A stretch of 42,025 nucleotides of DNA from Planctomycetes bacterium GWF2_41_51 (GTDB lineage: Bacteria; Planctomycetota; Phycisphaerae; Sedimentisphaerales; UBA12454): positions 1-42,025 of the forward strand of contig MHXZ01000013.1 of NCBI GenBank assembly GCA_001825665.1, given 5' to 3'. The notes beneath the pieces were generated by a model. That model was not told where the DNA came from. It searched no databases and saw only the letters and a program-made list of their open reading frames with translations. This document shows positions 23,579 through 38,900 of this stretch, piece after piece. Within the stretch, counting starts at the first letter, position 1. Every line of letters begins with the position of its first letter. Made by a program: the position numbers and the translations under genes.

Positions 23579-26517
23579 TGGAACCCAGTGAACTGATTAA
23601 AAAATGGCAAGACCCCGATCCGATATATCGGCCTGCACCATTCTGGTCATGGAACGGTCAACTCGAACCGGATCGCCTCATCAGGCAAATAGATAAAATG
23701 CACAAGGCTGGTTTTGGCGGTTTCTTTATGCACAGCAGATACGGGCTTAAAACCGAATACCTCAGCCCCGAATGGTTTGAATGTATTAGTGCCTGTATTG
23801 AAAAAGCCCGTTCCCTTGGAATGAAAGCTTATTTGTATGATGAGGATCGATGGCCTTCAGGAGGCGCCGGCGGAAACATTACCAGAGATAATCCTAAATT
23901 AAGGCTTAATTATTTAACTGCTGTAAAAAAAGATTCCGGTGAGTATGATTTTGTAATTAAACAGGTTAAGCCCAGTCCTTGGGAAAATGACGGTACATAT
24001 ATTGATACGATGAACAAGGCCGCTGTCGCTGAATTTATTAAATCAACTTATGATGAATATCACAAAAGATATTCAGCGTTTTTCGGGAATGTTACTCCTG
24101 CAATATTCACTGACGAACCTCATTATGGTTTTGTTTGGCATAAATGCGATGAGGCTGGTCATTACGTACCATGGACACCTGCATTGCCAAAGGAATTCCG
24201 ACGCAGATGCGGATATGATTTTTTACCGCATCTTAAAGAAATTGTTTTGCCCGCTGATAATTTTTGCAAAGCCAAATACGATTATTTTAAAACCATTACA
24301 GAGTTGTTTGCCGAAAATTTCAGTAAGCAAATAGGTGATTGGTGCTTGCAGCATAACATCAATTTGACCGGTCATTATTTATATGAGCAATCACTTTGGT
24401 CTCAAACAAAAGCTGTCGGAGCTTGTATGCCGCACTACCAATATATGCAGTGGCCCGGCGTCGATATTCTTACAGACCAAAATAATGAACTTGCAACGGT
24501 AAAGCAGTGCAGTTCTGTTGCGGCCCAATTTGGAAAAGAACGTGTTCTTAGTGAACTTTACGGCTGCACAGGCTGGGACTGGCCGCTTGAAGGCCACAAG
24601 TATATGGCCGATTGGCAAATAGCGGCAGGTGTGAATTTCCTTTGCCCGCATTTGACTCATTATAGTCTCGCAGGAGGGGCAAAACGCGATTATCCAGCAA
24701 GCATAATTGACCACAGCCCTTGGTGGAAATATTATAAAACGGTTACGGATTACCAGAGCCGGCTTTGTTTTATTCTTTCGCAGGGTAAAGCCTTACGCGA
24801 TGTGTTGGTGATACACCCGATTGAAAGTGCGTGGGGAGTATTTTCACAGGAAGAAAAAAACATTTCGATAAAACAGCTTCAAGACGAACTTGATTCTGCA
24901 ATATTTGCTTTATCTGAAAACCATTATGATTGGGATTTTGGAGATGAGTTATTGATCGCAAAATATAGCCGGATTGACGGGGATAAGTTTATTGTCGGCC
25001 AAATGAATTATAAACTTGTCATTTTGCCGGATATGCTGACGATCAGAGCTGGTACATTGAAAATGCTGATGGAATTTGCAGCAAATGGTGGGAAAATTAT
25101 TTTTACCGGCAGAATACCCAAATTCGTCGATGGAAACACTTCGAATCAAATTGATGAATTGAAAAACATTGCTTTAATCTGTGAAAGTATAAATCTAATC
25201 TCTACGCTGGAATCCTGTCTTGATCGCATTGTGAGTATAACAGAAGACAGAAAGGAACTCGACTGTATCTGGTACAATTTAAGACGATGTGATAATTACA
25301 ATATTTTATTCATACAGTCGCACGACAGGAAAAAATCTCACCGGGTGAATATCACAGTTAAAAATTGTAAAAAGCCGGTTGTTCTTTGGGATTCTTTAAG
25401 CGGAAAACATTTCCAAATTGAAACTGATTCTGCAGAGAATAATGTTTGCTGTTTTGAATTACAGATCAAACCAAGCGGTTCTGCTTTATTTACGTTCGGA
25501 ATGGAAGTTGAAAGCGAAAAATATAATTGCGATAATTATATACTGCGCGATAGCTATGAAATTGCGGGTCCATTTGAGTTTAGACTTACAGAATTGAATT
25601 CTATACCTTTGGACTATTGCAGGTATAAATTTGCAGACCAGCAATGGTCTGAACTGATGCCGACTTTGATGGCTGATAAACAAGTACGTGGGAAATTTAA
25701 TCTTAAACCGAGAATTGGATTTGATCAGCAGCCGTGGTATTTAGCCAAAAGCGGTGTATTGGATAAACAAAGCAGAGGCAGAATGATAATCAAGTACGAG
25801 TTTGAAGCAGCGAAAAAGCCTACCCAATGTAAACTTGTTATTGAAAACCCCGGGGATTTCGAAATTAATGTTAATGGCAGCAAAGTTAATGAAGTATGCG
25901 GATGGTGGATTGATGAAGATTTTAAAACCTTGAATATAAAAGATGTTCTTGTCCAGGGTAGAAATGAAGTTATGCTGGAGTTTGATTATCTCGCAGATAT
26001 CGATTTGGAAGATTTGTATATTGTTGGTGATTTTGGAACTGATCGCATTGACTCGCAAAAACCTTATGCACCAGGAAATATCCAAATAACCAAAATTCCT
26101 GAACAGCTAACAGAAGGAAATTGGGTTGGACAGGGGCTTGATTTTTATTCAGGGAGTATTTGCTATAAATTACAGGTTGCAAAACCGTTACAGAACCAAA
26201 GACTGAAATTAAAGTTAGGAAAAATTGAGTGTACTACATGTGCGATATTAGTTAATGGACAAACATTTATTTTGCCGTGGGCTCCATTTGAGGCTGACAT
26301 CACAGATGCACTTAAAACTGGTATAAACAATGTTGAAATAGATTTAATTGGTGACCGCAAGAATATATTAGGGCCGCTGCATGTGCCAAGAGAGAAATGG
26401 GTCGGTCCTGACCAGTTCAGTCCTGATAATCCTAACTGGCAGCATGACTATATTTTAAATCAAAATGGTTTGCTGGAACCAGTGATAATAGAGATATTTG
26501 AAAATAAAAGGCAATGA
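23578..26517 (+). CDS. Large glycoside hydrolase, GH106-like
   Basis: The protein has 979 residues; the start is chosen at the ATG overlapping the previous stop by one base. The N-terminal half is a barrel of the type annotated near alpha-L-rhamnosidase family GH106: PAPFWSWNGQLEPDRLIRQI, AGFGGFFMHSRYGLKTEYLS, LGMKAYLYDEDRWPSGGAGG, then AIFTDEPHYGF and GKERVLSELYGCTGWDW, where the acidic residues may be catalytic. A class-I-glutamine-amidotransferase-like segment follows (YKLVILPDMLTIRAGTLKML, GGKIIFTGR). The C-terminal part contains beta-sandwich domains (ENPGDFEINVNG, RNEVMLEFDY). No signal peptide is visible. The substrate is probably a rhamnose-like sugar in the imported oligosaccharide; the family call is tentative. 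Confidence 0.75.
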   Translation: MEPSELIKKWQDPDPIYRPAPFWSWNGQLEPDRLIRQIDKMHKAGFGGFFMHSRYGLKTEYLSPEWFECISACIEKARSLGMKAYLYDEDRWPSGGAGGNITRDNPKLRLNYLTAVKKDSGEYDFVIKQVKPSPWENDGTYIDTMNKAAVAEFIKSTYDEYHKRYSAFFGNVTPAIFTDEPHYGFVWHKCDEAGHYVPWTPALPKEFRRRCGYDFLPHLKEIVLPADNFCKAKYDYFKTITELFAENFSKQIGDWCLQHNINLTGHYLYEQSLWSQTKAVGACMPHYQYMQWPGVDILTDQNNELATVKQCSSVAAQFGKERVLSELYGCTGWDWPLEGHKYMADWQIAAGVNFLCPHLTHYSLAGGAKRDYPASIIDHSPWWKYYKTVTDYQSRLCFILSQGKALRDVLVIHPIESAWGVFSQEEKNISIKQLQDELDSAIFALSENHYDWDFGDELLIAKYSRIDGDKFIVGQMNYKLVILPDMLTIRAGTLKMLMEFAANGGKIIFTGRIPKFVDGNTSNQIDELKNIALICESINLISTLESCLDRIVSITEDRKELDCIWYNLRRCDNYNILFIQSHDRKKSHRVNITVKNCKKPVVLWDSLSGKHFQIETDSAENNVCCFELQIKPSGSALFTFGMEVESEKYNCDNYILRDSYEIAGPFEFRLTELNSIPLDYCRYKFADQQWSELMPTLMADKQVRGKFNLKPRIGFDQQPWYLAKSGVLDKQSRGRMIIKYEFEAAKKPTQCKLVIENPGDFEINVNGSKVNEVCGWWIDEDFKTLNIKDVLVQGRNEVMLEFDYLADIDLEDLYIVGDFGTDRIDSQKPYAPGNIQITKIPEQLTEGNWVGQGLDFYSGSICYKLQVAKPLQNQRLKLKLGKIECTTCAILVNGQTFILPWAPFEADITDALKTGINNVEIDLIGDRKNILGPLHVPREKWVGPDQFSPDNPNWQHDYILNQNGLLEPVIIEIFENKRQ

Positions 26518-26518
26518 T

Positions 26519-27589
26519 ATGAATCCACGTGAAAGAGTTCTTGCAATTTTGAATGGTGAAAAACCTGACCGTATTCCAGTTGACCTTTGGTACACTGGTG
26601 AAATCGCAGACGACTTGAAAAAGCATTTTCATGTCAACAGTGATCTTGAACTATATAAGTCGATGCAGCTTGATAAGATAGTATGGGTTATGGCAGGCTA
26701 TGATTTTAAATCAACAGATACGAACAGAACGGTTTGGGGGGTCCCGCTCAAACGAATTACTTCGGGCAAGGCTGTATACGATGAATTCGGGGAACCTCCT
26801 TTGAAGAATTATAATATTGATTCTTTGGATGAATATCCTTTTTGGCCAAAAGCTGAAAATTACGATTATGATAAAGCTCGGCAGTGGGCACAACAGGCAT
26901 ATCCAAATTATGTAACTATTGGTCCTTGGATTTCGTTTTTTGAAGTATATTGCCAGATGCGCGGTTTGCAGCAGGGGCTTATGGATTTAGTTCTTGAGCC
27001 TGATTTGGCGAATTCAATACTCGACAGAATCGAAGAGTGTCAAACGAGGATGCTCGAAACATTTCTGAAAGCTCTCGGCGATTCGATAGATATTGTTTTT
27101 GTTAGTGACGATATGGGAACGCAGGAAAATCTGCTGATTTCGCCAGATATATGGGAGAAGTTTTTTAAAGCTCGGCTGGCAAGATGGTGCGATCTGATTC
27201 ACAGTTACGGCAAAAAAGTTTTTTATCATTCTGATGGCGCTGTTGAACCTCTTATTTCAGGTTTGATTGATTGCGGGATAGATATTTTAAATCCCATACA
27301 GCGTATTTGCAAAGGAATGGACACAAAACTGCTTAAGTCCAAATACGGTGACAAAATAGTTTTTCACGGCGCGGTCGAAAATCAATCAATTTTACCTTTC
27401 GGCAGTCCTGAAGACGTTGCAAAAGAAACTAAATATTGTCTGGACACACTCGCCAGTGACGGCAGAGGTTATATTGCATGCAGTTGCCACAATATCCAGG
27501 CAGGTACACCGGTGGAAAATATTATAGCTTTAGCAAAGGCTGTGTGTTACTACAACCGTTCTACAACCAAAAGCCTTAATAGCTGCTAA
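26519..27589 (+). CDS. URO-D/MtaA-superfamily protein 2
   Basis: The protein has 356 residues. ATG 26519 is preceded by AAAAGG; a TTG upstream would give a longer form. MNPRERVLAILNGEKPDRIP is the family's N-terminal signature. The usual zinc motif region reads KVFYHSDGAVEPLI (H237, D239 where MtaA has Cys), and the C-terminal ligand region is YIACSCHNIQAGTPVENI (C321, C323), so the metal-site pattern is the converse of that in paralogue 1. The last residues, STTKSLNSC, are encoded by the beginning of repeat copy 2 and look like an appended tail. It is the last gene of the plus-strand operon. Confidence 0.8.
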   Translation: MNPRERVLAILNGEKPDRIPVDLWYTGEIADDLKKHFHVNSDLELYKSMQLDKIVWVMAGYDFKSTDTNRTVWGVPLKRITSGKAVYDEFGEPPLKNYNIDSLDEYPFWPKAENYDYDKARQWAQQAYPNYVTIGPWISFFEVYCQMRGLQQGLMDLVLEPDLANSILDRIEECQTRMLETFLKALGDSIDIVFVSDDMGTQENLLISPDIWEKFFKARLARWCDLIHSYGKKVFYHSDGAVEPLISGLIDCGIDILNPIQRICKGMDTKLLKSKYGDKIVFHGAVENQSILPFGSPEDVAKETKYCLDTLASDGRGYIACSCHNIQAGTPVENIIALAKAVCYYNRSTTKSLNSC

Positions 27590-27708: not shown

Positions 27709-27734
27709 AAAAAAGCGGCCGATTAATCGGCCGC
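27709..27734 (-). terminator. Intrinsic terminator of the Ubl operon
   Basis: GCGGCCGATTAATCGGCCGC is a perfect 20-base palindrome. Read on the minus strand it is followed at once by TTTTTT, so it ends the minus-strand operon about 65 bases past its last gene. On the plus strand there is no T-run after it. Confidence 0.8.
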
Positions 27735-27798: not shown

Positions 27799-28008
27799 TT
27801 ATTGTGATGGGAACAGGAATGTTTTCTTTTCTTTTTTATCGACCCCAAAGCTTAATTCCGTCTTTTTGAGCATTGGACTGAAATTGTTGCCTTCTTCATC
27901 ACTTGAAAGCCAGATTTGAAAATCGCCTTGATTCAGGTTTTCTACTTCAGACAGGATTTTCCTGAATTGTGAAACCGTCATTATATCTTCATTTTTAATT
28001 TTAAACAT
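27799..28008 (-). CDS. Small protein of unknown function, last gene of the Ubl operon
   Basis: The protein has 69 residues (MFKIKNEDIMTVSQFRKILS...). I chose the ATG one base after the E1-like gene's stop because GGAGG sits eight bases before it; a longer form starting inside the upstream gene is possible but lacks such a site. Segments DFQIWLSSDEEGNNFSPM and KKTELSFGV suggest a compact alpha/beta protein. The tight linkage to the E1 gene suggests a function within the conjugation module. I recognise no family. Confidence 0.7.
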   Translation of the reverse strand: MFKIKNEDIMTVSQFRKILSEVENLNQGDFQIWLSSDEEGNNFSPMLKKTELSFGVDKKEKKTFLFPSQ

Positions 28009-28009
28009 T

Positions 28010-28669
28010 TTAGTTGCCTCCATTTGGGACATTCATTTCCATAGCCAGTAAATTAACCTGAACATCTGGTTCAACAGGCAGCAACCGCAGATATTTAGTG
28101 AATTGTGCAAGCATAAAACCTGCTGCGATATTTGCACAGTAAATTGTTGTTTTCGCTGTACAAGGGCCGGCATAAGCCTGCTCTGCTGCAAAAAGAGTCT
28201 GAGGGTAATATTTCCGGCTTTTCTCATCATAGGCGGTTATTACACGCAATACTTCAGCGCTCATTCGCCCGTCACAAAGAAACGATACTTTATCCTTCAA
28301 TGCATCCCAGATAATTTTTCTTGTCTCTATTGAATCGACACAGACAAAAACGTAATTGCCGACAGTAGTTGACCTTTTGAATCGATCCAATACAACTTCA
28401 ATAACTAATTCAGGATTCATCTGCCTGCAGAATTCCGCTGTTGCATCTACTTTTGGTTTATGCAAATCTTTTGCCAGATACCCTTGACTTGCCAGATTGC
28501 TGATCTCAACATAATCAAAATCTATAATCTGAAGATGCGGCACTCCTATAGCAGTCAGCTGTAATGAAACTTGTCTTCCAATAGCGCCAACTCCTATTAC
28601 AGTTGCCTTACAATCAAGAATTCTTTGGCGAGGCACAATATCAGCTTGTCTTGAAAATCTATCATCCAT
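28010..28669 (-). CDS. ThiF/MoeB/E1-like ubiquitin-like-protein activating enzyme
   Basis: The protein has 219 residues, a single adenylation domain without the extra domains of eukaryotic E1. FSRQADIV at the N-terminus, the nucleotide loop G26-V-G-A-I-G31, and IIDFDYVEISNLASQGYLAK match the ThiF/MoeB fold; the usual Arg of the NxxR motif is Gln here. AYAGPCTAKTTIYC places Cys170 in a P-C-T context like the thioester cysteine of E1 enzymes, the best candidate for catalysis. It should adenylate the C-terminus of the small Ubl and pass it to the E2-like protein. The start overlaps the JAMM gene by eight bases, with GAGG upstream. Confidence 0.88.
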   Translation of the reverse strand: MDDRFSRQADIVPRQRILDCKATVIGVGAIGRQVSLQLTAIGVPHLQIIDFDYVEISNLASQGYLAKDLHKPKVDATAEFCRQMNPELVIEVVLDRFKRSTTVGNYVFVCVDSIETRKIIWDALKDKVSFLCDGRMSAEVLRVITAYDEKSRKYYPQTLFAAEQAYAGPCTAKTTIYCANIAAGFMLAQFTKYLRLLPVEPDVQVNLLAMEMNVPNGGN

Positions 28670-29402
28670 AAAGCACCTCATCCTCCTGCTCCCAGAAATC
28701 GCTTCTGACAGCAAGTTCATCAATAAATAATTGGCGTTCCACCGGATCCATCTTATCTACCTCAGCGATTAAATCATCGCTTGTAAGCAATGAAAAACTG
28801 CCAGAACTTTTCAATGGTGGTAAATCAGCAAGTGGTTTGTCGTTCAGGATAAGTTTTTCTGATTTATCTTTTAAAATCTCGTCAACGAAGACATTTGCTT
28901 TATACTGCTGTATCCATAAATCTGTATCACTGCCGGCAAATTCACAGTCGTAATCAACATAGACAGGAATCTTCACTTCACCACCGGGGCCGGTATTAAA
29001 TCTTAATCTTGCATAGATGTTTCCATCTTGGGCAATTATTGCCATCACTGCCCAATCGCTGGATCCGAATACTCTCTCAAAAGTCCGTTCGTCCGTAAGA
29101 CTTGGTTCCGGAGATGCGCCGGGATGCGTATGTATCCAATGGCGTGCAAATTCATGTGGTTTTCGTCCTGCTGCAACCTGGTCTTCAAAAAATCCTGATA
29201 TAGCTTCATCATCAAATGAAACTGAAATCGAAGTTACCTTCTGTTTAACTAAAGCAAAATCTGTAACAAACAATAAATCATCAGGTTTTGTTATTCCAAA
29301 GCCGCCGACTTCATTATGTGTCATATCACGCATAAATAATAGTTTTGCCCATGCTGTAGGACTAAACCTCAGCATCGGCTTTTTCTGAATGCAGTTCTTC
29401 AT
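28662..29402 (-). CDS. JAMM/JAB-domain metalloprotease (deubiquitinase-like)
   Basis: The protein has 246 residues. The zinc-protease signature is complete: Glu31 in HNEVGGFGI, then H91-T-H93-PGASPEP-S101-LT-D104, exactly HxHx7SxxD. In bacterial Ubl operons this enzyme trims the Ubl precursor and/or removes Ubl from targets. A C-terminal extension (about 150-246) rich in acidic residues is not part of the JAB fold and may bind partners. AAGGA eight bases before the ATG at 29402 supports this start, giving a 41-base overlap with the E2-like gene; an internal ATG at residue 10 is the alternative. Confidence 0.9.
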   Translation of the reverse strand: MKNCIQKKPMLRFSPTAWAKLLFMRDMTHNEVGGFGITKPDDLLFVTDFALVKQKVTSISVSFDDEAISGFFEDQVAAGRKPHEFARHWIHTHPGASPEPSLTDERTFERVFGSSDWAVMAIIAQDGNIYARLRFNTGPGGEVKIPVYVDYDCEFAGSDTDLWIQQYKANVFVDEILKDKSEKLILNDKPLADLPPLKSSGSFSLLTSDDLIAEVDKMDPVERQLFIDELAVRSDFWEQEDEVLYG

Positions 29403-30378
29403 TTTCGTTTTCCTTTCGTTCTAATTCACAATTTTTGCATAAGCCTTCTTCGTTTAAACAATTCTTACAATACTTTTCTTCACAATCAACACAGGTATTC
29501 ATACAATCTACGCATACAGGTTCGTGGCATTCCTGACATTCAGAAGAGCAGCCGAGGCAGACTGTTGTTTCGCATACTCTGCAATAGGTGCTGCATTGTG
29601 GACAAAATTCGCGATCGCATTTTTCGCAGTAATAGCATTCATCCTGTGATATTGTATCGCCGCAGTCATAACATCCTCTGCCCTCCCAGTCCTCCAGCGA
29701 AATATAAGCGCTATCAGGGTTGTAAGTTCGCAGGATGCTTATAATTAACATGAAGAAATCATTGAATCTTCCCTGTTCTAATGCAGCTCTAATTGCGACA
29801 TGACCGTCACCTTCGCAGAGTCTTTCTCCGCTTACATGGGGATGAGTAACTTCGCTGTTATTGCCGGCAGGGTTTGATTCAATTGCTATTACTCTATAAG
29901 GAGAATCTTCATAGAGCTTTGCTAATTGATTAATGAAAAGCCTTATTTCAAATGGCCCAAGTGAAGTATCATCAAGTACGATATCTTCTGTCATTACAGA
30001 AATTGTTTTTTCCTTGAAGTTGATATTGAGTTTTCCGAATTCCTGCTCTATTTGTAAAAGTTCCTTGAAGATATCGATCAAATTAGGCGTCACTGCTTCA
30101 TCTGAATTAATCAATTCTTTGAATCTCTGCAAGTGTTGTGAAAAATCATTGAGATTTCGTTCTATCCTTGATCTGATGGATTCAGCGCCAATCAGCCAGT
30201 TCTTTTCAACTGCAGTGTCAAAAAGATGTTTATCCTTTATTGTTTCAAGGCATTTTTCATTGAACTCATCCATCACAGTTTGAATCTGCTTTAACCTTGA
30301 GCCGTTAAGCTTTTTTAAGCTATCTAAAAGCAGATTTGACAGCCTTATAAGTTTTCTTTGTTTTTTTCGTTTTTTCAT
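29362..30378 (-). CDS. E2-like conjugating protein fused to a Cys-rich periodic zinc array
   Basis: The protein has 338 residues. Residues 1-110 are helical and charged, probably a coiled coil. Residues about 115-232 read like a UBC fold: LGPFEIRLFINQL, then H179-P-H-V-SGERL-C188-EGDG, which mirrors the HPN...C pattern of E2 enzymes, with C188 as candidate thioester cysteine, then helix FNDFFMLIISILRT. Residues 236-317 hold 21 cysteines, mostly in ten CxxC pairs; from 251 to 307 they follow C-x2-C-x4-C-x2-C-x3 repeated with a strict 15-residue period, consistent with a row of zinc knuckles. This may act like an E3/RING part. ATG 30378 is favoured over ATG 30384 by AAAGGA spacing. Confidence 0.78.
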   Translation of the reverse strand: MKKRKKQRKLIRLSNLLLDSLKKLNGSRLKQIQTVMDEFNEKCLETIKDKHLFDTAVEKNWLIGAESIRSRIERNLNDFSQHLQRFKELINSDEAVTPNLIDIFKELLQIEQEFGKLNINFKEKTISVMTEDIVLDDTSLGPFEIRLFINQLAKLYEDSPYRVIAIESNPAGNNSEVTHPHVSGERLCEGDGHVAIRAALEQGRFNDFFMLIISILRTYNPDSAYISLEDWEGRGCYDCGDTISQDECYYCEKCDREFCPQCSTYCRVCETTVCLGCSSECQECHEPVCVDCMNTCVDCEEKYCKNCLNEEGLCKNCELERKENENEELHSEKADAEV

Positions 30379-30393
30379 AAACATTTCCTTTGC

Positions 30394-30434
30394 AAAAAAG
30401 ACCTCTGCCTAAAATTAAAAATAAGCAGAGGTCT
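30394..30434 (-). terminator. Intrinsic terminator/attenuator between Ubl and E2 genes
   Basis: Perfect ten-base arms (AGACCTCTGC and GCAGAGGTCT) with a 16-base loop are followed on the minus strand by TTTTTT. It lies after the Ubl stop and only about 15 bases before the E2 start. Partial termination here would give more Ubl message than enzyme message. Confidence 0.8.
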
Positions 30435-30451
30435 GATTGATTATTTTGCAG

Positions 30452-30697
30452 TTATGCAATCTGTTCTAACACCGCAGATCGCGCGCCGTCGATTTTTGTG
30501 GGCGTTATCGTAACTCGGTCGCCGTCTTGAAGCACATAATCTTTTGAAACAGGCATGCGGTTTACACGGATAAGATTGTCTTCTTCATTTTGCCCTGACA
30601 TCTTTATCTTGAAGAACTGCTCGATAGTTGTGCCCTCAGCAATGTCCAGATGATTGGCGAACCCGCCGCCGCTGTTATTAATAAAAAGTATTTGCAT
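30452..30697 (-). CDS. Ubiquitin-like beta-grasp protein (ThiS/MoaD-like Ubl)
   Basis: The protein has 81 residues. MQILFINNSGGG is a first beta strand and turn, TIEQFFKIKM the helix, and VNRMPVSKDYVLQDGDRVTI the beta-grasp ending seen in ThiS, MoaD and prokaryotic ubiquitin-like proteins. The C-terminus is ITPTKIDGARSAVLEQIA: the only glycine near the end is Gly71, followed by ten residues. The E1 reaction needs a free C-terminal Gly or equivalent, so maturation by the JAMM protease is likely. It is the first gene of the conjugation set, with GAAGGGA before the ATG and a long leader. Confidence 0.85.
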   Translation of the reverse strand: MQILFINNSGGGFANHLDIAEGTTIEQFFKIKMSGQNEEDNLIRVNRMPVSKDYVLQDGDRVTITPTKIDGARSAVLEQIA

Positions 30698-30851
30698 TTT
30701 AATTTTCCCTTCAAAAATGTTTTATAATTCTTTTCAGTTAAACTCAACACTAAAAACTCATAACTCAAAACTATTTTTGGGTGGACTGCGTGCGCAGTAT
30801 TTTCCATTTATCATAAGAAATTCCTTTGTGTTTGATTAAAAAGATTTGTAT
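30698..30851 (-). promoter_or_regulatory. Leader of the Ubl gene with GAGTT repeats and a hairpin
   Basis: This 154-base gap is the longest inside the operon. On the minus strand it contains a hairpin (ACTGCG-CA-CGCAGT) and then a run of loosely repeated GAGTT units (TTTTGAGTTATGAGTTTTTA, then GTGTTGAGTTT). The position suggests an extra promoter or regulatory leader for the Ubl, but no clear -35/-10 pair is visible. Confidence 0.4.
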
Positions 30852-31166
30852 TTACGATTTGCTTGTTATCACTTCATAGCTTTTTTGATTAATGCTTCCT
30901 TCAAGAGCAAGCAAGACAGATTCAATGTCTTTTCTTGCCTGTTCCATTACGAGGATTGCTCCTGTTATCTTACCATCACCGCCTTCAACGATTTCAGTTA
31001 CGATAAATTTAAACAGGCCATCTCCGAAATTTTCATTGGTTACCTTTGCAAGTAAAACCTGAAGATTACAGCAATCTTTATCAGGTTCGATAGGCAGCAA
31101 GTCTGAGTGTGGATAAGCATTATATATCACGCGAGCGATATTTAACTTCTCTTTTGTTTTAGGCAT
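30852..31166 (-). CDS. Small protein of unknown function (104 residues)
   Basis: The sequence begins MPKTKEKLNIARVIYNAYPH and has LPIEPDKDCCNLQVLLAKVT and IVTEIVEGGDGKITGAILVM. It is probably a soluble alpha/beta protein with a C-terminal helix (EQARKDIESVLLALEG). AAAGGA precedes the ATG. It lies directly upstream of the Ubl gene. I recognise no family, and nothing in it shows a catalytic motif. Confidence 0.7.
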   Translation of the reverse strand: MPKTKEKLNIARVIYNAYPHSDLLPIEPDKDCCNLQVLLAKVTNENFGDGLFKFIVTEIVEGGDGKITGAILVMEQARKDIESVLLALEGSINQKSYEVITSKS

Positions 31167-31193
31167 AACTTTCCTTTCACTTTTTAAAAAACG

Positions 31194-31484
31194 CTAATCA
31201 TTATTTAACCGGCCGGTTTCTTTGGCGTTTTCCAGATTGATTATCTGCGGGTCTTCACTGTTAATGTCATCAAATACTATGAGCCGAAGTCTGCCTTGCC
31301 AGATTTCAATGCCGATAGACCAACCTTCTCCATCAGCAGCACATTTCTCACCGAAACCATCCGGCTGTATCCAAATCTGACCGCCTTCTGACAAGATTTT
31401 AACTTTTATCTGAGCAGATGGCAGAGAATCGGCACATTGTTCTTTCAGCGTATATTCAGTTATTCTTTTTTCAGTTTGTTTCAT
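31194..31484 (-). CDS. Small protein of unknown function (96 residues)
   Basis: A beta-rich acidic protein with QIKVKILSEGGQIWIQPDGF and GWSIGIEIWQGRLRLIVFDD. A good AAGGA site precedes the ATG. It belongs to the run of short, evenly spaced minus-strand genes that look like accessory genes of a plasmid or integrated element. Function is not recognised. Confidence 0.7.
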   Translation of the reverse strand: MKQTEKRITEYTLKEQCADSLPSAQIKVKILSEGGQIWIQPDGFGEKCAADGEGWSIGIEIWQGRLRLIVFDDINSEDPQIINLENAKETGRLNND

Positions 31485-31496
31485 AACATCCTTTCT

Positions 31497-31718
31497 TTAA
31501 TCCAAACCAATATCCACAATATATTGAAGGAGTTTTGATAAATCATATTCTTCAAAAAATACTTCAGCATCCGGATTTTGAATCGTGCCATCAAACCAGT
31601 TTTTTACGGGCAATGTCGGCAAAGAAACTTTCAGGTCATTGGCTTCAATAACCATCCTTCGCATTTTTTTGCAGATTGAACTTTGACGTTTTACTTTCTC
31701 AAATATTTCATCACACAT
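31497..31718 (-). CDS. Small protein of unknown function (73 residues)
   Basis: The start is fixed by GGAGG five bases before the ATG (MCDEIFEKVKRQ); a TTG twelve bases upstream would be in frame but falls on the ribosome site itself. The N-terminal half is helical and basic, the C-terminal half acidic (FFEEYDLSKLLQYIVD). It sits just after its upstream neighbour's stop. No family is recognised. Confidence 0.65.
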   Translation of the reverse strand: MCDEIFEKVKRQSSICKKMRRMVIEANDLKVSLPTLPVKNWFDGTIQNPDAEVFFEEYDLSKLLQYIVDIGLD

Positions 31719-31730
31719 ATTTGCCTCCAA

Positions 31731-31919
31731 TCATAGAATCATCTTGAATTGTTGATACTGATGTTCAGGAGGGGGGCTTATTAAATTCCCGTTTTCATCT
31801 TCATAATCAACCTGACTGCCGGCGATAAATGCTTGCCCTGTACATACAAACTTGCCGGCAGGATTCTTTTTGAACTCCTGACAAACGAACCCTGTGGTAA
31901 TCTTGATAAACTTATTCAT
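31731..31919 (-). CDS. Small mobile-element-type protein (62 residues)
   Basis: The pattern KFIKITTGFVCQEFKKN, then GKFVCTGQAFIAG and VDYEDENGN recalls short conserved proteins found on plasmids and integrated elements beside DUF2958 genes. It is probably a single small beta-rich domain. Function is unknown; the resemblance is from memory of the pattern rather than from a search. Confidence 0.65.
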   Translation of the reverse strand: MNKFIKITTGFVCQEFKKNPAGKFVCTGQAFIAGSQVDYEDENGNLISPPPEHQYQQFKMIL

Positions 31920-31931
31920 AATATTTTTCCT

Positions 31932-32153
31932 TCATTTTCTTTTTGCTAAATCAATTGTTACAATCCTTCCTTTACAATCCATCACCTGCAAAACAGGCGG
32001 CATTGAATCGAGGTCTGTCATTATCTGATGTGTAAGCTTTGCGGCATTTTTCGCATTTGAGGCATTGACATCAATAACATAAATAACTCTAAAATTCGGC
32101 TTATTGCCTTTTTCTTTTGGTGGTGGCTGTATCCGTAAATATTTTCTGCTCAT
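31932..32153 (-). CDS. Small mobile-element-type protein (73 residues)
   Basis: The sequence FRVIYVIDVNASNAKNAAKL and MPPVLQVMDCKGRIVTIDL gives a beta-alpha-beta pattern that I associate with short element-borne proteins next to DUF2958 genes. Its ATG overlaps the stop of the DUF2958 gene by four bases (ATGA), so the two are translationally coupled. Function is unknown. Confidence 0.7.
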   Translation of the reverse strand: MSRKYLRIQPPPKEKGNKPNFRVIYVIDVNASNAKNAAKLTHQIMTDLDSMPPVLQVMDCKGRIVTIDLAKRK

Positions 32154-32467
32154 TTCTTCACCTCATTGAATAATTCAGGTGCGATTTCTTCGAGAGTTTT
32201 TGGCTTAAAGTACAAATCACGTTCTATTGGCAAGCCGAGAGAGCCTCTGACGGATTCCAGTTCCTTCAGACTGAAATAGCCAAGTTCTTTCTCGAAGCCC
32301 TCAACAAGACCGAAGAAAGTATCTTCACCATCAAACTCAGTTGCGTACCATGTCCAATTTGAATCTGGTGTGAAGAATTTGGCATGCACAACTGTTTTGC
32401 CGCCTTTATCTTCCTGGGCATAAAGCGGAGGCAGTTTTTTTCTGATTTCTTTTGTTAATAGTTTCAT
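32150..32467 (-). CDS. DUF2958-family protein
   Basis: The protein has 105 residues. KLLTKEIRKKLPPLYAQEDK, then FFTPDSNWTWYATEFDGED and GYFSLKELESVRGSLGLPIE are the hallmarks of DUF2958, a family common on conjugative plasmids and integrative elements, often near antirestriction or DNA-handling genes. The start at ATG 32467 is decided by the terminator just upstream and by GAAAGG before it; a longer reading frame would run into the hairpin. Its biochemical role is unknown. Confidence 0.85.
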   Translation of the reverse strand: MKLLTKEIRKKLPPLYAQEDKGGKTVVHAKFFTPDSNWTWYATEFDGEDTFFGLVEGFEKELGYFSLKELESVRGSLGLPIERDLYFKPKTLEEIAPELFNEVKK

Positions 32468-32499
32468 TTTTTGCCTTTCTTTGAAAAGATTTGTTGAAC

Positions 32500-32524
32500 A
32501 AAAAAGCATCCGATGGATGCTTTT
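32500..32524 (-). terminator. Intrinsic terminator after the GHKL ATPase gene
   Basis: AAAAGCATCC and GGATGCTTTT are perfect ten-base arms with a three-base loop. On the minus strand the hairpin ends in TTTTTT. It separates the upstream ATPase part of the operon from the DUF2958-to-E1 part. Confidence 0.8.
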
Positions 32525-32546
32525 GACAATTGATACCGAATTTATT

Positions 32547-34172
32547 CTAATCAGAATCAGCAGGGCGATTTACTCTCTGCCTTCGGCCATCCTTGAAAAC
32601 AATCTCAAGACTCTCATCTGAAAATATGGTTATCTTCTGCCATTTTTCATAAAGCGGGGAAAGCTTGCGTATAAGTTGTTGCCTGACAGTTTCATAAGGG
32701 CCAATAAGCTCATTCCAGAATTCATCCAGCTCTTTTTCAAAGTCGTAAAGCTGTGTATCGTAGCTGTCGCCTTCATCGCTGTAACCGCCAAAATGAAACC
32801 ATATACTTTCAGATGAGATATGTTTTCTTGCATCTTTTGTTACACATATAGTATGTTCATACCACTTGCTTTTGTCTTGTGATTCATCGAAAACTGCCAT
32901 ATCGACATTTGAGCTGAATGTTTGTCCATTGGATGCCTGAACCGTTATTGTCAGTTTATCAAAACAGACAATTTCGCCGCAGTACATTGAATGCCGGAGC
33001 TTTTCATTTTCCTTTATAACTTCAACTTTTGTTACCTTTGGCAGTTTTGTCCAGCTATAACCCATATAACCATCATCGATAGTCACAGGTATAAAGGATT
33101 TATCTTTAAATTCTCCAAGTGCTGCCAACAGATGCGCATTTGTTTCCGCTGTATCATCGTTACAATCTGCATTGCAGCATAAATAACCATTTGTAACTTT
33201 AAAATTCTTCGGGATAGCTATCTCTACAGGTTCGGTCGAATCGCCGCTTAGAAGGCCGACTCTAAACTGAGGCTGGGCTTCCTGTAATTCAATACCGAGT
33301 TTTTTGGCGCGAAGGTAGTCTTCATAGTAGAGGGTATGACTTTTCTGACGCTGAAAATATCTATAATATTCAACCTCAATGGCAGCCATTAATTGTTTAT
33401 AAGCTTGATTTTCTACCAGCCTTGTTCTTGCAGGAAGCATAAGTCTGATATCCGTCTGGTCTGTAATATCCACCAGTATTGACAAACTTTGCCTGCTTTT
33501 ATTCGGAAAATCATCTATCTGTATAACCTGCCCATGAAAATTCACAAGCACTCTGTCGTAATACACTGGTGATGTCCATAGACTGTGATATTTGGATATA
33601 TCCTTCGTCACCTCAATCCTGCAGCCGGGTTTATCATAATATACGGCACTATTGCTGCAAAATGGCATTGAATGGCAGTATTTACCATCAACAATTACCC
33701 TGATTCCCGCAAATATGGCGTGCTTTTCAACAATGTCCATATCCCATGGCTTTTCATCATTAAATTCAAGTATCGTTCCTTTGATATAATTTTCAGATTT
33801 TGTGACAGTAACGGGTGTGCCGGTCCAGCTGTGCTTGCTAATGATAAGTTTTGAGTTTTCCGAGATAATAGTTACCTGTCTTGGCGCAAGACAGAATAAT
33901 CCTACACCGGCAGGATCCTCACCAGCTTCTAATTTTTCATCCCAGCCGCTGCCACCTAAATCCAGCAGTTTATGAAAATCCTGAATACCAGAGCCATTAT
34001 CTTTGACCTTTACAAGATTATTTTTGTTTGTGATTCTGACTTCCGTCGCTCCGGCCCTTCGGGCATTTTGCAGAATTTCTATTACTCTGCCATCAATACT
34101 GCCCGTGAAAAGGCGAGAGGCTTTTGTCAACAGCCTTGGATTAACTTTAGCAGATATAATTTGTTCATTCAT
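32547..34172 (-). CDS. GHKL-superfamily ATPase (HSP90/MutL/MORC-like)
   Basis: The protein has 541 residues. The N-terminal GHKL ATP-binding domain is complete: N-box E32-ILQ-N36-ARRAGA, G1 box VKDNGSGI (D58), G2 region EDPAGVGLFCLAPRQV. The part that follows, DITDQTDIRLMLPARTRLVE, resembles the second domain of gyrase/HSP90-like proteins, and the C-terminal 250 residues are unassigned. No histidine-kinase phosphoacceptor or membrane segment is seen. Such ATPases act as ATP-gated clamps or chaperones; the partner here could be DNA or a Ubl-modified protein, which is inference. AAAGG precedes the ATG. Confidence 0.82.
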   Translation of the reverse strand: MNEQIISAKVNPRLLTKASRLFTGSIDGRVIEILQNARRAGATEVRITNKNNLVKVKDNGSGIQDFHKLLDLGGSGWDEKLEAGEDPAGVGLFCLAPRQVTIISENSKLIISKHSWTGTPVTVTKSENYIKGTILEFNDEKPWDMDIVEKHAIFAGIRVIVDGKYCHSMPFCSNSAVYYDKPGCRIEVTKDISKYHSLWTSPVYYDRVLVNFHGQVIQIDDFPNKSRQSLSILVDITDQTDIRLMLPARTRLVENQAYKQLMAAIEVEYYRYFQRQKSHTLYYEDYLRAKKLGIELQEAQPQFRVGLLSGDSTEPVEIAIPKNFKVTNGYLCCNADCNDDTAETNAHLLAALGEFKDKSFIPVTIDDGYMGYSWTKLPKVTKVEVIKENEKLRHSMYCGEIVCFDKLTITVQASNGQTFSSNVDMAVFDESQDKSKWYEHTICVTKDARKHISSESIWFHFGGYSDEGDSYDTQLYDFEKELDEFWNELIGPYETVRQQLIRKLSPLYEKWQKITIFSDESLEIVFKDGRRQRVNRPADSD

Positions 34173-34225
34173 AATAACCTTTCTTTTTAAAATAATATTT
34201 GATTAAGAATTGAATTTTCCAATGT

Positions 34226-34642
34226 TCAATGATTGTCAATTTTAACAATGCGTATTCGCTCGTAATCTTTTGATAATCCGGCGACACCTTCGAGTGCCTT
34301 ATCAACATTTTCGTGTTCAAGTAATTTAAAGAGGATCCGCAGCTTGCTTTCTATTGCCCTGGAAAGCTTTTTGAGGAAATAATCAAAGTCTGTAAGGTTT
34401 CCATCGAATCGCAATGGTGTTTCATCCCTGTCAATAGTTGCTATTTCAAGAAGCAGATTGCCAATGTAAAAGTTCATCTCCTTATTGTGGATTTTTAAGC
34501 AGAATATAGTGTCAAGCCCTTTCCCTTTTTGCTCGGCAGCAATATCAACGATGGCAAATGTTCCTTCCAGTATTTTGCATACAAGGGGTGTAACGAAGAT
34601 AAGAAATTGAGATATTTGGATACTGTCAGTTCGTTCGTGCAT
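34226..34642 (-). CDS. Protein of unknown function (138 residues)
   Basis: The start is ATG 34642 with AAAGGA seven bases upstream; a TTG five codons earlier would lie on that site. Text such as SQFLIFVTPLVCKILEGTFA and FYIGNLLLEIATIDRDE suggests a mixed alpha/beta fold, with a helical C-terminus (LSRAIESKLRILFKLLE). It is not obviously a membrane protein. It lies between the first small gene and the GHKL ATPase and is presumably cotranscribed. No family is recognised. Confidence 0.65.
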   Translation of the reverse strand: MHERTDSIQISQFLIFVTPLVCKILEGTFAIVDIAAEQKGKGLDTIFCLKIHNKEMNFYIGNLLLEIATIDRDETPLRFDGNLTDFDYFLKKLSRAIESKLRILFKLLEHENVDKALEGVAGLSKDYERIRIVKIDNH

Positions 34643-34704
34643 AAAATGTCCTTTCAAAAATAAATAATTATTAAATTGGTCTATTAAAGATTTTTGGATA
34701 GTGT

Positions 34705-34977
34705 TTATTGTGAGGTGTAGTTATTGCCAGTATTGTCAGATGAGTCTTTTTTGGTAGTGAGGTATTCGTATGCCTGTTGCAGGGCGAGAATTGCCTTTGG
34801 AATGTCATTAATAGATAAGCTGTTGGTGCCTTTCCACTGGCCGGTTTTGTTGTCTTTGTACCTTACTTCTAACGCGACTTTTGGCAATGTGAGAGATTTA
34901 CCATTACTGATTATGATGTTTTTAAAAACAGAGGCTCTTACCGCTCCTGCCTTGAAGGTGATTTCTGGTTTTGACAT
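34705..34977 (-). CDS. Small mobile-element-type protein, first gene of the operon
   Basis: The protein has 90 residues. KPEITFKAGAVRASVFKN, then LEVRYKDNKTGQWKGTNSLS and INDIPKAILALQQAYEYL match the pattern of a short conserved protein seen on many plasmids and integrated elements (beta strands, then a helix). The ATG is preceded by TTGCGGAA, a weak ribosome site. Just upstream lies an inverted repeat that may be an operator. Function is unknown. Confidence 0.7.
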   Translation of the reverse strand: MSKPEITFKAGAVRASVFKNIIISNGKSLTLPKVALEVRYKDNKTGQWKGTNSLSINDIPKAILALQQAYEYLTTKKDSSDNTGNNYTSQ

Positions 34978-35014
34978 TTTCCGCAAATTCCATATCGATT
35001 GGAATTAACCAATC

Positions 35015-35976: not shown

Positions 35977-38900
35977 TCAATGACATGCGCGAAACCCCTC
36001 GCTATAGCCCATATAGCTTTCGCTACCCGTACTCGTGCTTGAGATTTTACAGTTGCCAACACTTCCGCTCCATAGGCCACCATGAATTATACGAACATTA
36101 TCACTGTATATTGACGATGTCCACTCTTCGACATTACCTGCCATGTCGCATATTCCGTAGCCGTAAGTTCCAAATTCACCAATAATAGTTGTACCATCAG
36201 GATGGCTTGAATCCCGATAATTAGCCATACTGTTATTTATCGCAGCACCGCAACCATAGATGAAACTGCCATCATAGTCCGCCACTGCTTTCCACTCTTC
36301 ATGCGTAGGCAGTCGCCAACCATAATAATTGCAGAACGCCGTTGCACCATACCAACTAACGTATGTTACCGGATGATTACCAAAGCCGTTATCAACAGTA
36401 AATGATTCATCAATAAAATGAATTCTTGCAGCTCCACCATTAATCGCTCCATTCCAATGTATGCCTGTACCTGCGAGATCATAATATGGTTCAGAATAAC
36501 TGATATCATCAATTGCATAAACCAAATTATTGTAAACTGTTATCTGATTAGCACCTTTGGCATCGTTAAGAAATTGACAATATTGAGCATTAGTCGTTTC
36601 ATATTTACTCATATAACCGGTAAATCCTTCTTGACCTGAAACACCGGGATCGTCTATATAAATCCACACTATATCATTTTCGTCATTGTCGGCAATGCCC
36701 CAAAGTTCAACATCATCAATATTCCAACCCGAATATGCATAAGCTCCGAGGATTCCAACTTCATAACTCCACCGTATATAAACTGTTGGTTGATTATCTG
36801 CTACTGCACTAATATCATATTCCTTCTTGTGCCAAACATTTTCAATAATTTCTCCTGTAATTTCCCATACGGTCTGCCAGGTTGTTCCATTATTTGAAAC
36901 TTCAATCGCACCTCTAACATAAGGTGGATAATCCGTATTTAGCCATCTTGCAAATTTGAGATGAACATTGCTGTATCCTGTACAATTAATAGCACTGGTC
37001 GTTAAGAAGAATGGCCCATCAACGTCTATGCTATAATCTCCAGTCAAATTCACACCATAAACATTATTGCCGGTATACCCACTGCTTGGATCTGAATAAC
37101 CATACGATTCTCCGCCTTGGCTTAATGGCAGACCATATTGCCACTGTCCTTCCGTCGTCCAACTTGGATTTGAATCAAGTAGCTGGCTATAAAACATCTC
37201 CAGTTCAGGCAGAGCCGGTACATAACCTACTAACCAATTCTCAGCAAAAATTACAAAGTCAAGGAAATTGACATTCAAATCTCCATTTAAATCTGCTTCT
37301 AACATGAGTTCAGGGTCTGACATAGGATATCCAGGGTCGTTACTTAATAACCATTCATTTGCCAGAATTCCAAAGTCAATCATATCTACATCGCAATCGT
37401 TATCGAAGTCTCCCTCCGTATCATAACATTCATTGCCCTCGAAGATACGGATGTAACCACCAGAAGATACAATGATTTCATTTTTGCCATTTTGATCAAG
37501 ATCAGAAACAATTGCTTGGCCAAAACCTTCTGAAATATTCATTGACCATAGAAGATTAAGTTCATTATCAAGCACATACAAAGCATTATCTGTTCCTTCT
37601 GTAGGTGTCCCTTTAATTGCAACTTCAAGCTTACCATCGCCATTTAAGTCATTTATGAATAAAACATCCAGACCGCTATCCGCAACGGAGAATTCATATT
37701 TAACTGGTAATCCTGATATCGGATTTAATGCAATAATTGAACCAGTCTGAGTTGTTCCATCTTTTTTATTTACGAGGATTTCAGGAATGCCATCTTCATC
37801 AAGATCTGCAAATCCGCCAAGTGTTACCGGCATCACAAAATTATGTTCAAGTCCTGAAATTGGCTCTCCAGATACCGGGTCAAGTACATAGACTCTGCCG
37901 AGAGAGCCACCCCATAAATCCCAGCCATGACTAAAAGATGTTGCGATAATATCCAATCTGCCATTGTTATCAATATCACATAAACCAATACTTGAATCTA
38001 CGAAACCAGAACCTTCAAATTGTTTTCGCCATAAACTGTTTCCGTTTGCGCCTAATAGAAAAGCATAACATTCGCCATCTGTACTTCCATCAGCACCGGT
38101 AACACCATTTGCAACACCGTACCCGCCGTGAAGAACTTCTTTGTCTGTAAATAATCCAGCAACATCTCCTATCGCAGGAGTATATACAGCGGGTCCAATA
38201 TCATAATACCATAACTCATTCATTGTATCGCAGCTGAAAGCTATTGTTCCACGGCACTGCACCCATGGAGCCGCTTTGTATCCTACTAACTCCATTGATC
38301 CGTTTTGATCCAGATCTGTCGCACATCTTGCTATTACAATGCCATAATCTGGATCGACCGAAGTTATAAATGTTTTAACTAAGAAATTAGGTTCGGAAAT
38401 ATCATATGCATTAATTCTCGCAGTTGCTCCATTTTTAATATTCGTAAGAATTTCAGGTTTTCCATCGCTAGTTACATCTGCCAAGGCATTCAAAGATGCG
38501 GTTGTTATAATTTGCCATTTAACCTGTCCAACACTGTCATATACATACAGATTACTGGCATCAGAAACCACAAGCTCTAATACACCATCTCCATCTACAT
38601 CACCGGTCTTCATGTTATTTCCTGGTACATTCCATTTTTCAATAAAAGGTGTGTTACTGGTTCTTGTTCCGGAAGGATATGGATAAAGATTCGAATTGTG
38701 CAGATCATATAAATCAATATTCCAGCCCGAAGGAGTTTGTTGACCGATTTCGAATTTAACAGTTACTGATTTATTGCTGTTCATTGTAACTGTATTTGTA
38801 TTTGCTTTAGACAAGTCGTTATCTGTCCCGCTCCAGGCTTTAACTATGTACCCATCATCGGGTACAGCAGTTAAAATTACAACGGTTTCCTCTCCGTAAG

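Follow-up and report, generated by a model that had tools for sequence, protein, structure and literature searches.

The described systems that come closest to the locus reported here are the BilABCD operons, the PRTRC cassettes, type II CBASS and the Ub-E1-E2-RING-Rpn11 set of Caldiarchaeum subterraneum. In BilABCD, BilA is a tandem ubiquitin-like protein (Ubl), BilB has a CEHH motif, and BilD joins an inactive and an active adenylation domain to a Cys domain (PMC11354881). The PRTRC cassettes of mobile replicons, ordered Ubl-(F)-E2-JAB-E1, probably correspond to operon type 6d of Iyer et al. 2006, which has a matching organisation and for which roles in addiction or protection were speculated (PMC1779556). 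In type II CBASS, the C-terminus of cGAS is Gly or Ala, and a C-terminal Ala is accepted in Cap2-type conjugation (PMC10097602). The Caldiarchaeum pro-ubiquitin carries a nine-residue tail that is cut off by Rpn11 before E1 can activate the protein (PMC5654768). Here, we analyzed a stretch of 42,025 nt from Planctomycetes bacterium GWF2_41_51 (contig MHXZ01000013.1, positions 1 to 42,025, forward-strand numbering; hereafter the window). As a first-pass annotation had stated, consecutive minus-strand genes in the window encode a Ubl, an E2-like protein, a JAMM metalloprotease and an E1-like adenylyltransferase. Judging from their sequences, these four core genes would form a stand-alone, reversible Ubl-conjugation module that is carried by mobile elements and phages and most likely serves its carrier, a reading that we hold to be rather probable. 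We found no prior description of this family in the literature searched, and an earlier in-silico mention may exist.

Recurrence and features of the core genes

The order Ubl-E2-JAMM-E1 recurs in about 100 loci, with up to five copies per genome, and this recurrence places the four-gene set far beyond chance. The Ubl profile was the query that worked (120 loci in species genomes), and a search of genome contigs with the E2 protein alone returned nothing. Nearly all of the 80 Ubl matches listed belong to Planctomycetota; the few other assignments among them (SAR324, Hydrogenedentota, an alphaproteobacterium and Actinomycetes) may reflect transfer or binning error. Five E2 copies are present in the genome of the window, and 9 of the 59 relatives searched, this genome included, have at least one. 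A Planctomycetota-wide scan of 392 genomes was positive in 17, weakly so in three. Ubl, E2 and JAMM keep this order in each of 16 additional loci, and E1 comes next except at one locus, which is cut short by the end of the contig. Exceptions to the four-gene linkage are mostly contig ends, genes missed by the labelling of open reading frames (ORFs), and three loci in which the E2 call precedes the Ubl (L092, L120 and L122). Co-occurrence had been named as a check by the first-pass annotation, and the four genes are constantly together across loci.

The Ubl matches the Pfam family ThiS below the cut-off (0.002). Its AlphaFold2 model has the beta-grasp fold that the first-pass annotation expected from structure prediction (b-b-a-b-b, mean predicted local distance difference test, pLDDT, of 85), and the best Foldseek matches are Caldiarchaeum ubiquitin (the best PDB match, E 4.4e-4), SUMO and ThiS. 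The ending TP-x-K-[IVL]-x-G-x is found in 101 of 104 homologues, with GA in 97. In the window, the conserved TP-x-K-I-x-G-A is followed by a short variable tail, and between 0 and 77 amino acids (aa) lie beyond the GA across homologues. A fixed GA combined with a varying tail suggests that the Ubl is processed.

The JAMM protein matches Prok-JAB slightly below the Pfam cut-off (5.9e-5), and the solved sequence nearest to its profile is Caldiarchaeum Rpn11 (1.6e-4). The zinc motif of MPN+ proteases is complete (E31...H91-x-H93...S101-x2-D104) and conserved at 95% or more. The E1 has one Pfam match, to ThiF (2.3e-23), which spans residues 32-208 of 237; the protein would have 219 aa if Met19 is the start. 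Its C188, previously numbered C170, and the CVD motif are conserved among 79 homologues. The JAMM motif, earlier described as full, is indeed complete.

The top library scores of the E1 and the Ubl, to ThiF and ThiS, would also fit sulfur-carrier chemistry (ThiS/MoaD-like), in which the Ubl is thiocarboxylated for biosynthesis and not conjugated. We regard this as very improbable, given that no conserved metabolic partner gene is found, that an E2-like protein and a JAMM protease accompany the loci, and that the Ubl ends in GA and not in GG. Moreover, JAB-linked systems are held by Iyer et al. not to be of the ThiF type (PMC1779556). The sulfur-carrier role was rejected for its lack of metabolic partners.

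The 340-aa protein is likely, but not proven, to be an E2. It consists of an N-terminal helical hairpin (residues 1-93), a UBC-like core (102-219) and a Cys-rich domain (238-319) with ten CxxC pairs. In the core, HPHV at 181-184 precedes the candidate catalytic C190, as the catalytic Cys follows HP[NH] in the E2 (UBC) superfamily. In the motif T-HPHV-x6-[LV]C-x-G, the H, P, H and C are invariant across 84 aligned cores. This conserved C190 is the C188 of the first-pass annotation, and the gene possibly starts at its third codon, giving 338 aa instead of 340. The 20 Cys of the CxxC pairs are invariant in a 17-sequence alignment and are retained at ~80-97% among 98 sequences. The predicted structure (mean pLDDT 81) shows the hairpin, a helix, beta-strands, an active-site loop, two helices as in UBC proteins and the Cys-rich part, with low confidence for the active-site loop and for the linker after the core. 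In a profile alignment (hhalign) with five eukaryotic E2s, whose sequences were entered by hand, HPN/HPH and the catalytic Cys are in register, and an equal score was reached in 6 of 150 column permutations. The assignment is thus based on the HPHV-x6-[LV]C motif, the predicted topology, the register with eukaryotic E2s and the gene context, without a significant score. Of the UBC fold that structure prediction had been expected to reveal in the 338-aa protein, a UBC-like topology and the E2 motif were seen; the fold has no significant match in the library.

Comparison with described systems and layout of the operon

BilABCD has the gene order Ubl-E2-JAB-E1 in common with the window operon, and on this point the first-pass annotation was right; its assignment to a Bil type did not hold. 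The Ubl has one predicted beta-grasp domain where BilA has two, and the 237-aa E1 has a single ThiF match in place of the two adenylation domains and Cys domain of BilD. Where the CEHH motif of BilB has its E (C+6) and its two H (C+8 and C+13), the E2 has V196, I198 and E203, with HPH before the Cys instead, and its Cys-rich domain is extra relative to BilABCD. Bil membership was rejected on the basis of the single-domain Ubl, the short single-domain E1 and the lack of a CEHH motif.

The PRTRC cassettes have both the gene order and the association with mobile replicons in common with the window operon. On two sphingomonad plasmids, Novosphingobium pLA4 and Sphingobium p3 (L161 and L171), a homologue of the GHKL ATPase encoded upstream of the Ubl in the window lies 0.7-2.5 kb downstream of the PRTRC ThiF gene, so that the combination of this ATPase with an E2 system, called unfamiliar at first, has a parallel. 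A GHKL gene is near PRTRC in two of the eight loci read, and none is annotated nearby in the other six (L165-L170). In profile comparisons with plasmid counterparts, the ATPase (5.8e-53) and the E1 (4e-14) are homologous and the JAMM weakly so (0.013), whereas the E2 (0.24) and the Ubl (0.48) have no significant similarity to PRTRC proteins B and C; the organisation is shared, and homology of the Ubl and the E2 would go beyond what the profiles indicate. These likenesses could mean that the cassette is a distant branch of the PRTRC plasmid cassettes, with a role in replicon maintenance alongside ParB-like functions. We consider this improbable. The window E1 scores 23.4 bits against PRTRC_ThiF, far under the cut-off of 144.75, and none of 199 genomes of the phylum has a match above it. 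The E2 has no NCBIfam match to PRTRC protein B, and an NCBIfam scan of ten operon proteins showed no ParB, E or F partner (the 143-aa, 93-aa, 62-aa and 77-aa [31497] genes were scanned with Pfam only). The Ubl of this family ends in GA, that of PRTRC in TKG; the HPH before the Cys is absent from the PRTRC B read here, and the Cys-rich domain also differs. Finally, the carriers are chromosomes and phages, mainly of Planctomycetota, and the copies in finished genomes are chromosomal. PRTRC membership was rejected on curated cut-offs, and PRTRC is kept as the nearest organisational parallel.

Type II CBASS has E1, E2 and JAB chemistry (Cap2/Cap3) and the C-terminal Gly/Ala of the conjugated protein in common with the window operon. 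Cap2 fuses E1 and E2, whereas here the two are separate and a dedicated Ubl is present. No CD-NTase, effector or E1-E2 fusion was found in the operon by ORF list and library scans. Caldiarchaeum subterraneum, which provides the nearest solved Ubl fold and JAMM sequence, also has a tailed Ubl precursor; in comparison, the window operon has no separate RING gene, a GA instead of a GG end, a short E1 and a place on bacterial mobile elements.

The operon runs from 34986 to 27799 on the minus strand, and many of its genes overlap or touch in the ORF list (Table 1). The location of the cluster, first given as 27799-34977, is upheld, with its end moved to ~34986 and the 93-aa and 143-aa genes, which have homologues in other copies, included. 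The DUF2958 gene was also correctly recognized, but the small genes between it and the Ubl number five and not two. A promoter scan of the operon gave a signal no higher than shuffled sequence.

Table 1 Features of the window, with operon genes in order of transcription
Feature	Position	Strand	Basis
93-aa gene	34705..34986	-	also upstream in L016, L024, L025
143-aa gene	34226..34657	-	also in own-genome copies L013 and L014
GHKL (Bergerat) ATPase, 541 aa	32547..34172	-	HATPase_c_3 1.2e-4 (below Pfam cut-off), conserved nucleotide-binding motifs
DUF2958 protein, 119 aa	32150..32509	-	Pfam 6.4e-17
Small accessory gene, 73 aa	31932..32153	-	recurrence in other loci
Small accessory gene, 62 aa	31731..31919	-	recurrence in other loci
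Small accessory gene, 77 aa, start uncertain	31497..31730	-	recurrence in other loci
Small accessory gene, 96 aa	31194..31484	-	recurrence in other loci
Small accessory gene, 104 aa	30852..31166	-	homologues upstream of Ubl in several copies
Ubl, 81 aa, single predicted beta-grasp domain	30452..30697	-	AlphaFold2, Foldseek, homologue alignment
E2-like protein, 340 aa	29362..30384	-	predicted structure, motif, register with eukaryotic E2s
JAMM metalloprotease, 246 aa	28662..29402	-	Prok-JAB match, complete zinc motif
E1-like adenylyltransferase, ThiF type, single domain, 237 aa	28010..28723	-	Pfam ThiF, conserved residues
77-aa gene after E1	27799..28032	-	homologues in L011, L012, L022; only part of copies
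Terminator-like hairpin (8 pairs, 7 GC) then T6, operon end	27715..27734	-	consensus scan only
Tyrosine recombinase, 209 aa	40840..41469	-	PF00589 1.5e-30

The GHKL ATPase is found in only part of the cassette loci. Its profile matches four plasmid ATPases (5.8e-53), two of them near PRTRC; homologues are present in 101 plasmid records, and plasmid homologues of the window DUF2958 protein are up to 65% identical. In the own-genome copy L011 (6870-7112) the ATPase is reduced to its last ~50 aa, and in L013 and L014 no GHKL gene is detectable, which points either to a dispensable ATPase or to decay of these copies. The Planctomycetia loci have another upstream set (c19, DUF1257, c12, AAA ATPase, c7, c18 and c9), and in L115 (4426-7227) and L172 a DUF1257 protein and an AAA ATPase stand before the cassette as an alternative to GHKL and DUF2958. 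On the planctomycete plasmid pPla86_1 (L144:36312-37688) there is a 458-aa ThiF protein, with a DUF2958-like gene elsewhere on the plasmid.

Between the recombinase and the operon, the window encodes a 1594-aa secreted-type protein (35977-40761) with InlB-like repeats and FG-GAP, dockerin and sulfatase-modifying-factor domains. A uroporphyrinogen-decarboxylase-like family is much expanded in this genome (64 matches, including window 26498-27589).

Linkage to mobile DNA and phage contigs

The tyrosine recombinase, 5.9 kb upstream of the operon, is the sole gene of a mobile-element type identified in the window and comprises the catalytic domain only. A relative of it sits upstream of the own-genome copy L013, and the window recombinase probably belongs to the element. 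Of 12 copies in eight finished or near-finished genomes, seven of these genomes being single-contig, 8 have an integrase (PF00589) no more than 10 kb away. With 99 integrases in about 60 Mb, 0.035 would be expected per copy and about 0.4 in all, giving a P of about 8e-10 if spacing is even; integrases need not be evenly spaced, and copies on the same chromosome are not independent. In the genome of the window, an integrase is found in the 10 kb around three of the five copies, and in the C70 copy it is directly upstream of the GHKL gene. On Planctomycetia chromosomes, the cassette is part of ~9 kb blocks. Of the five copies on one chromosome, three share 82-92% identity over 7-9 kb. In an E1 tree, the four own-genome E1s placed are scattered: the window copy is with L011, L012 with a copy from another genus, and L013 elsewhere. 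The copies L011 and L013 are mosaic, with 82% identity from the Ubl upstream and about 65-73% over E2-E1.

The plasmid or integrative and conjugative element character first ascribed to the upstream genes is borne out as regards mobility, through the integrase linkage, the multiple copies and the phage contigs; no relaxase or plasmid gene adjoining the operon is visible in the window, and a plasmid search with JAMM gave no match.

Viral scans identified 13 distinct contigs. By PHROGs matches within about 10 kb of the cassette, L130 has genes for terminase, SbcC and DnaB, L128 for DNA polymerase and Sak4, L156 for DNA polymerase and terminase, and L155 for DnaB; L159 looks like an integrative element and not a phage, and L157 and L158 are ambiguous in type. 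The phage-like L130 (6441-10429) and L131 (6517-10438) carry a second, divergent E1-like gene as well as an SbcC-like one, and their Ubl, at 221 aa, appears to be multi-domain. Because of their E1 relatives, the phage hosts are presumably Planctomycetota. Tentatively, tailed phages, probably of Planctomycetota, and related elements may encode a full private ubiquitin-like system, comprising a Ubl, an E1, an E2 with an inbuilt E3-like zinc domain and a deconjugase, that modifies their own replication machinery or host proteins.

The cassette could instead provide antiphage defence as Bil and CBASS do, with the Ubl tagging phage or effector proteins on infection so that virions are blocked or a response is triggered, and with elements carrying it against competing phages. 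The component set and order match BilABCD (PMC11354881), the distribution is patchy, mobile and multi-copy, the Ala end is that of CBASS cGAS, and the E2/JAMM halves of mosaic copies diverge. Defence genes are also among the cargo of phages and elements, and the neighbours sampled here include a few for methyltransferases and CARF proteins. However, phage contigs hold the cassette beside their own replication genes, which speaks against defence as the general role, and defence models match just the E1 and the JAMM, distantly. Of the 80 neighbours sampled, 7 match phage integrase, more than any other Pfam family, no clear defence island is seen, and the PADLOC families listed match one neighbour each, mostly methyltransferases. 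We therefore view defence as unlikely, if less so than a PRTRC branch, and prefer a module that serves its carrier. Found across the phylum next to integrases and within the genomes of uncultured phages, the four-gene kit seems to be an instrument of mobile DNA and not just of antiphage defence.

A proposed carrier-serving conjugation module

In the mechanism that we propose, the JAMM protease would trim the Ubl tail to the mature ...G-A end, predicted as ...KIDGA for the window, and the ThiF-type E1, given its family and conservation, would adenylate the Ubl and hold it as a thioester on C188. The Ubl could then pass to C190 of the E2 and on to target proteins, with the fused Cys-rich, zinc-type domain helping transfer in place of a separate E3. 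Prokaryotic RING/treble-clef partners were reportedly described by Burroughs et al. in 2011. The JAMM protease would also take the Ubl off its targets. The varying upstream ATPase modules (GHKL with DUF2958 in the window type, AAA with DUF1257 in Planctomycetia) may supply regulation or target choice, and the proteins modified for the benefit of the carrier may be replication, partition or host proteins. Reversible conjugation is suggested by the constant synteny, the conserved catalytic residues, the Ubl fold and the proximity of the JAMM to Caldiarchaeum Rpn11. Mobility is indicated by the patchy spread, the scattered own-genome copies, the repeated ~9 kb blocks, the integrase linkage and the phage contigs.

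Several observations weigh against this reading. The 340-aa E2 has no matching model in Pfam, NCBIfam, PHROGs or PADLOC, and its 84 relatives have no relevant Pfam match. Foldseek listed UFC1, UBE2K, UbcA1 and UBE2H for the E2, all at a non-significant E of 0.3-1.4, and the alignment with the five eukaryotic sequences reached only P 0.05 over 106 columns. With the whole E2 model, Foldseek and VIA-align mainly picked up coiled coils that match the N-terminal hairpin; the lack of any E2 in the VIA-align list is uninformative on the UBC-like core. Scans with Prok-E2_B and PRTRC_B were silent everywhere, controls included, and are likewise uninformative. No attachment site or target duplication was found around the window operon, where repeats are of chance length only. 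Isolate phages searched with JAMM and with a phage-contig Ubl gave no match, and in the E1 tree a number of the phage copies sit on long branches and are divergent. The viral contigs come from uncultured sources, and contigs of metagenome-assembled genomes are open to misbinning.

Since several copies are in complete planctomycete chromosomes, the question of defence versus element function is directly testable. If the proposed function is correct, the described ubiquitin-like conjugation systems would gain a large family that so far lacks annotation and is dispersed over one bacterial phylum and several phages, and this family would link two separate lines, the defence Ubl operons and the plasmid PRTRC cassettes. 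The phage-encoded system, if true, would be a case of viral ubiquitin-like signalling in bacteria.

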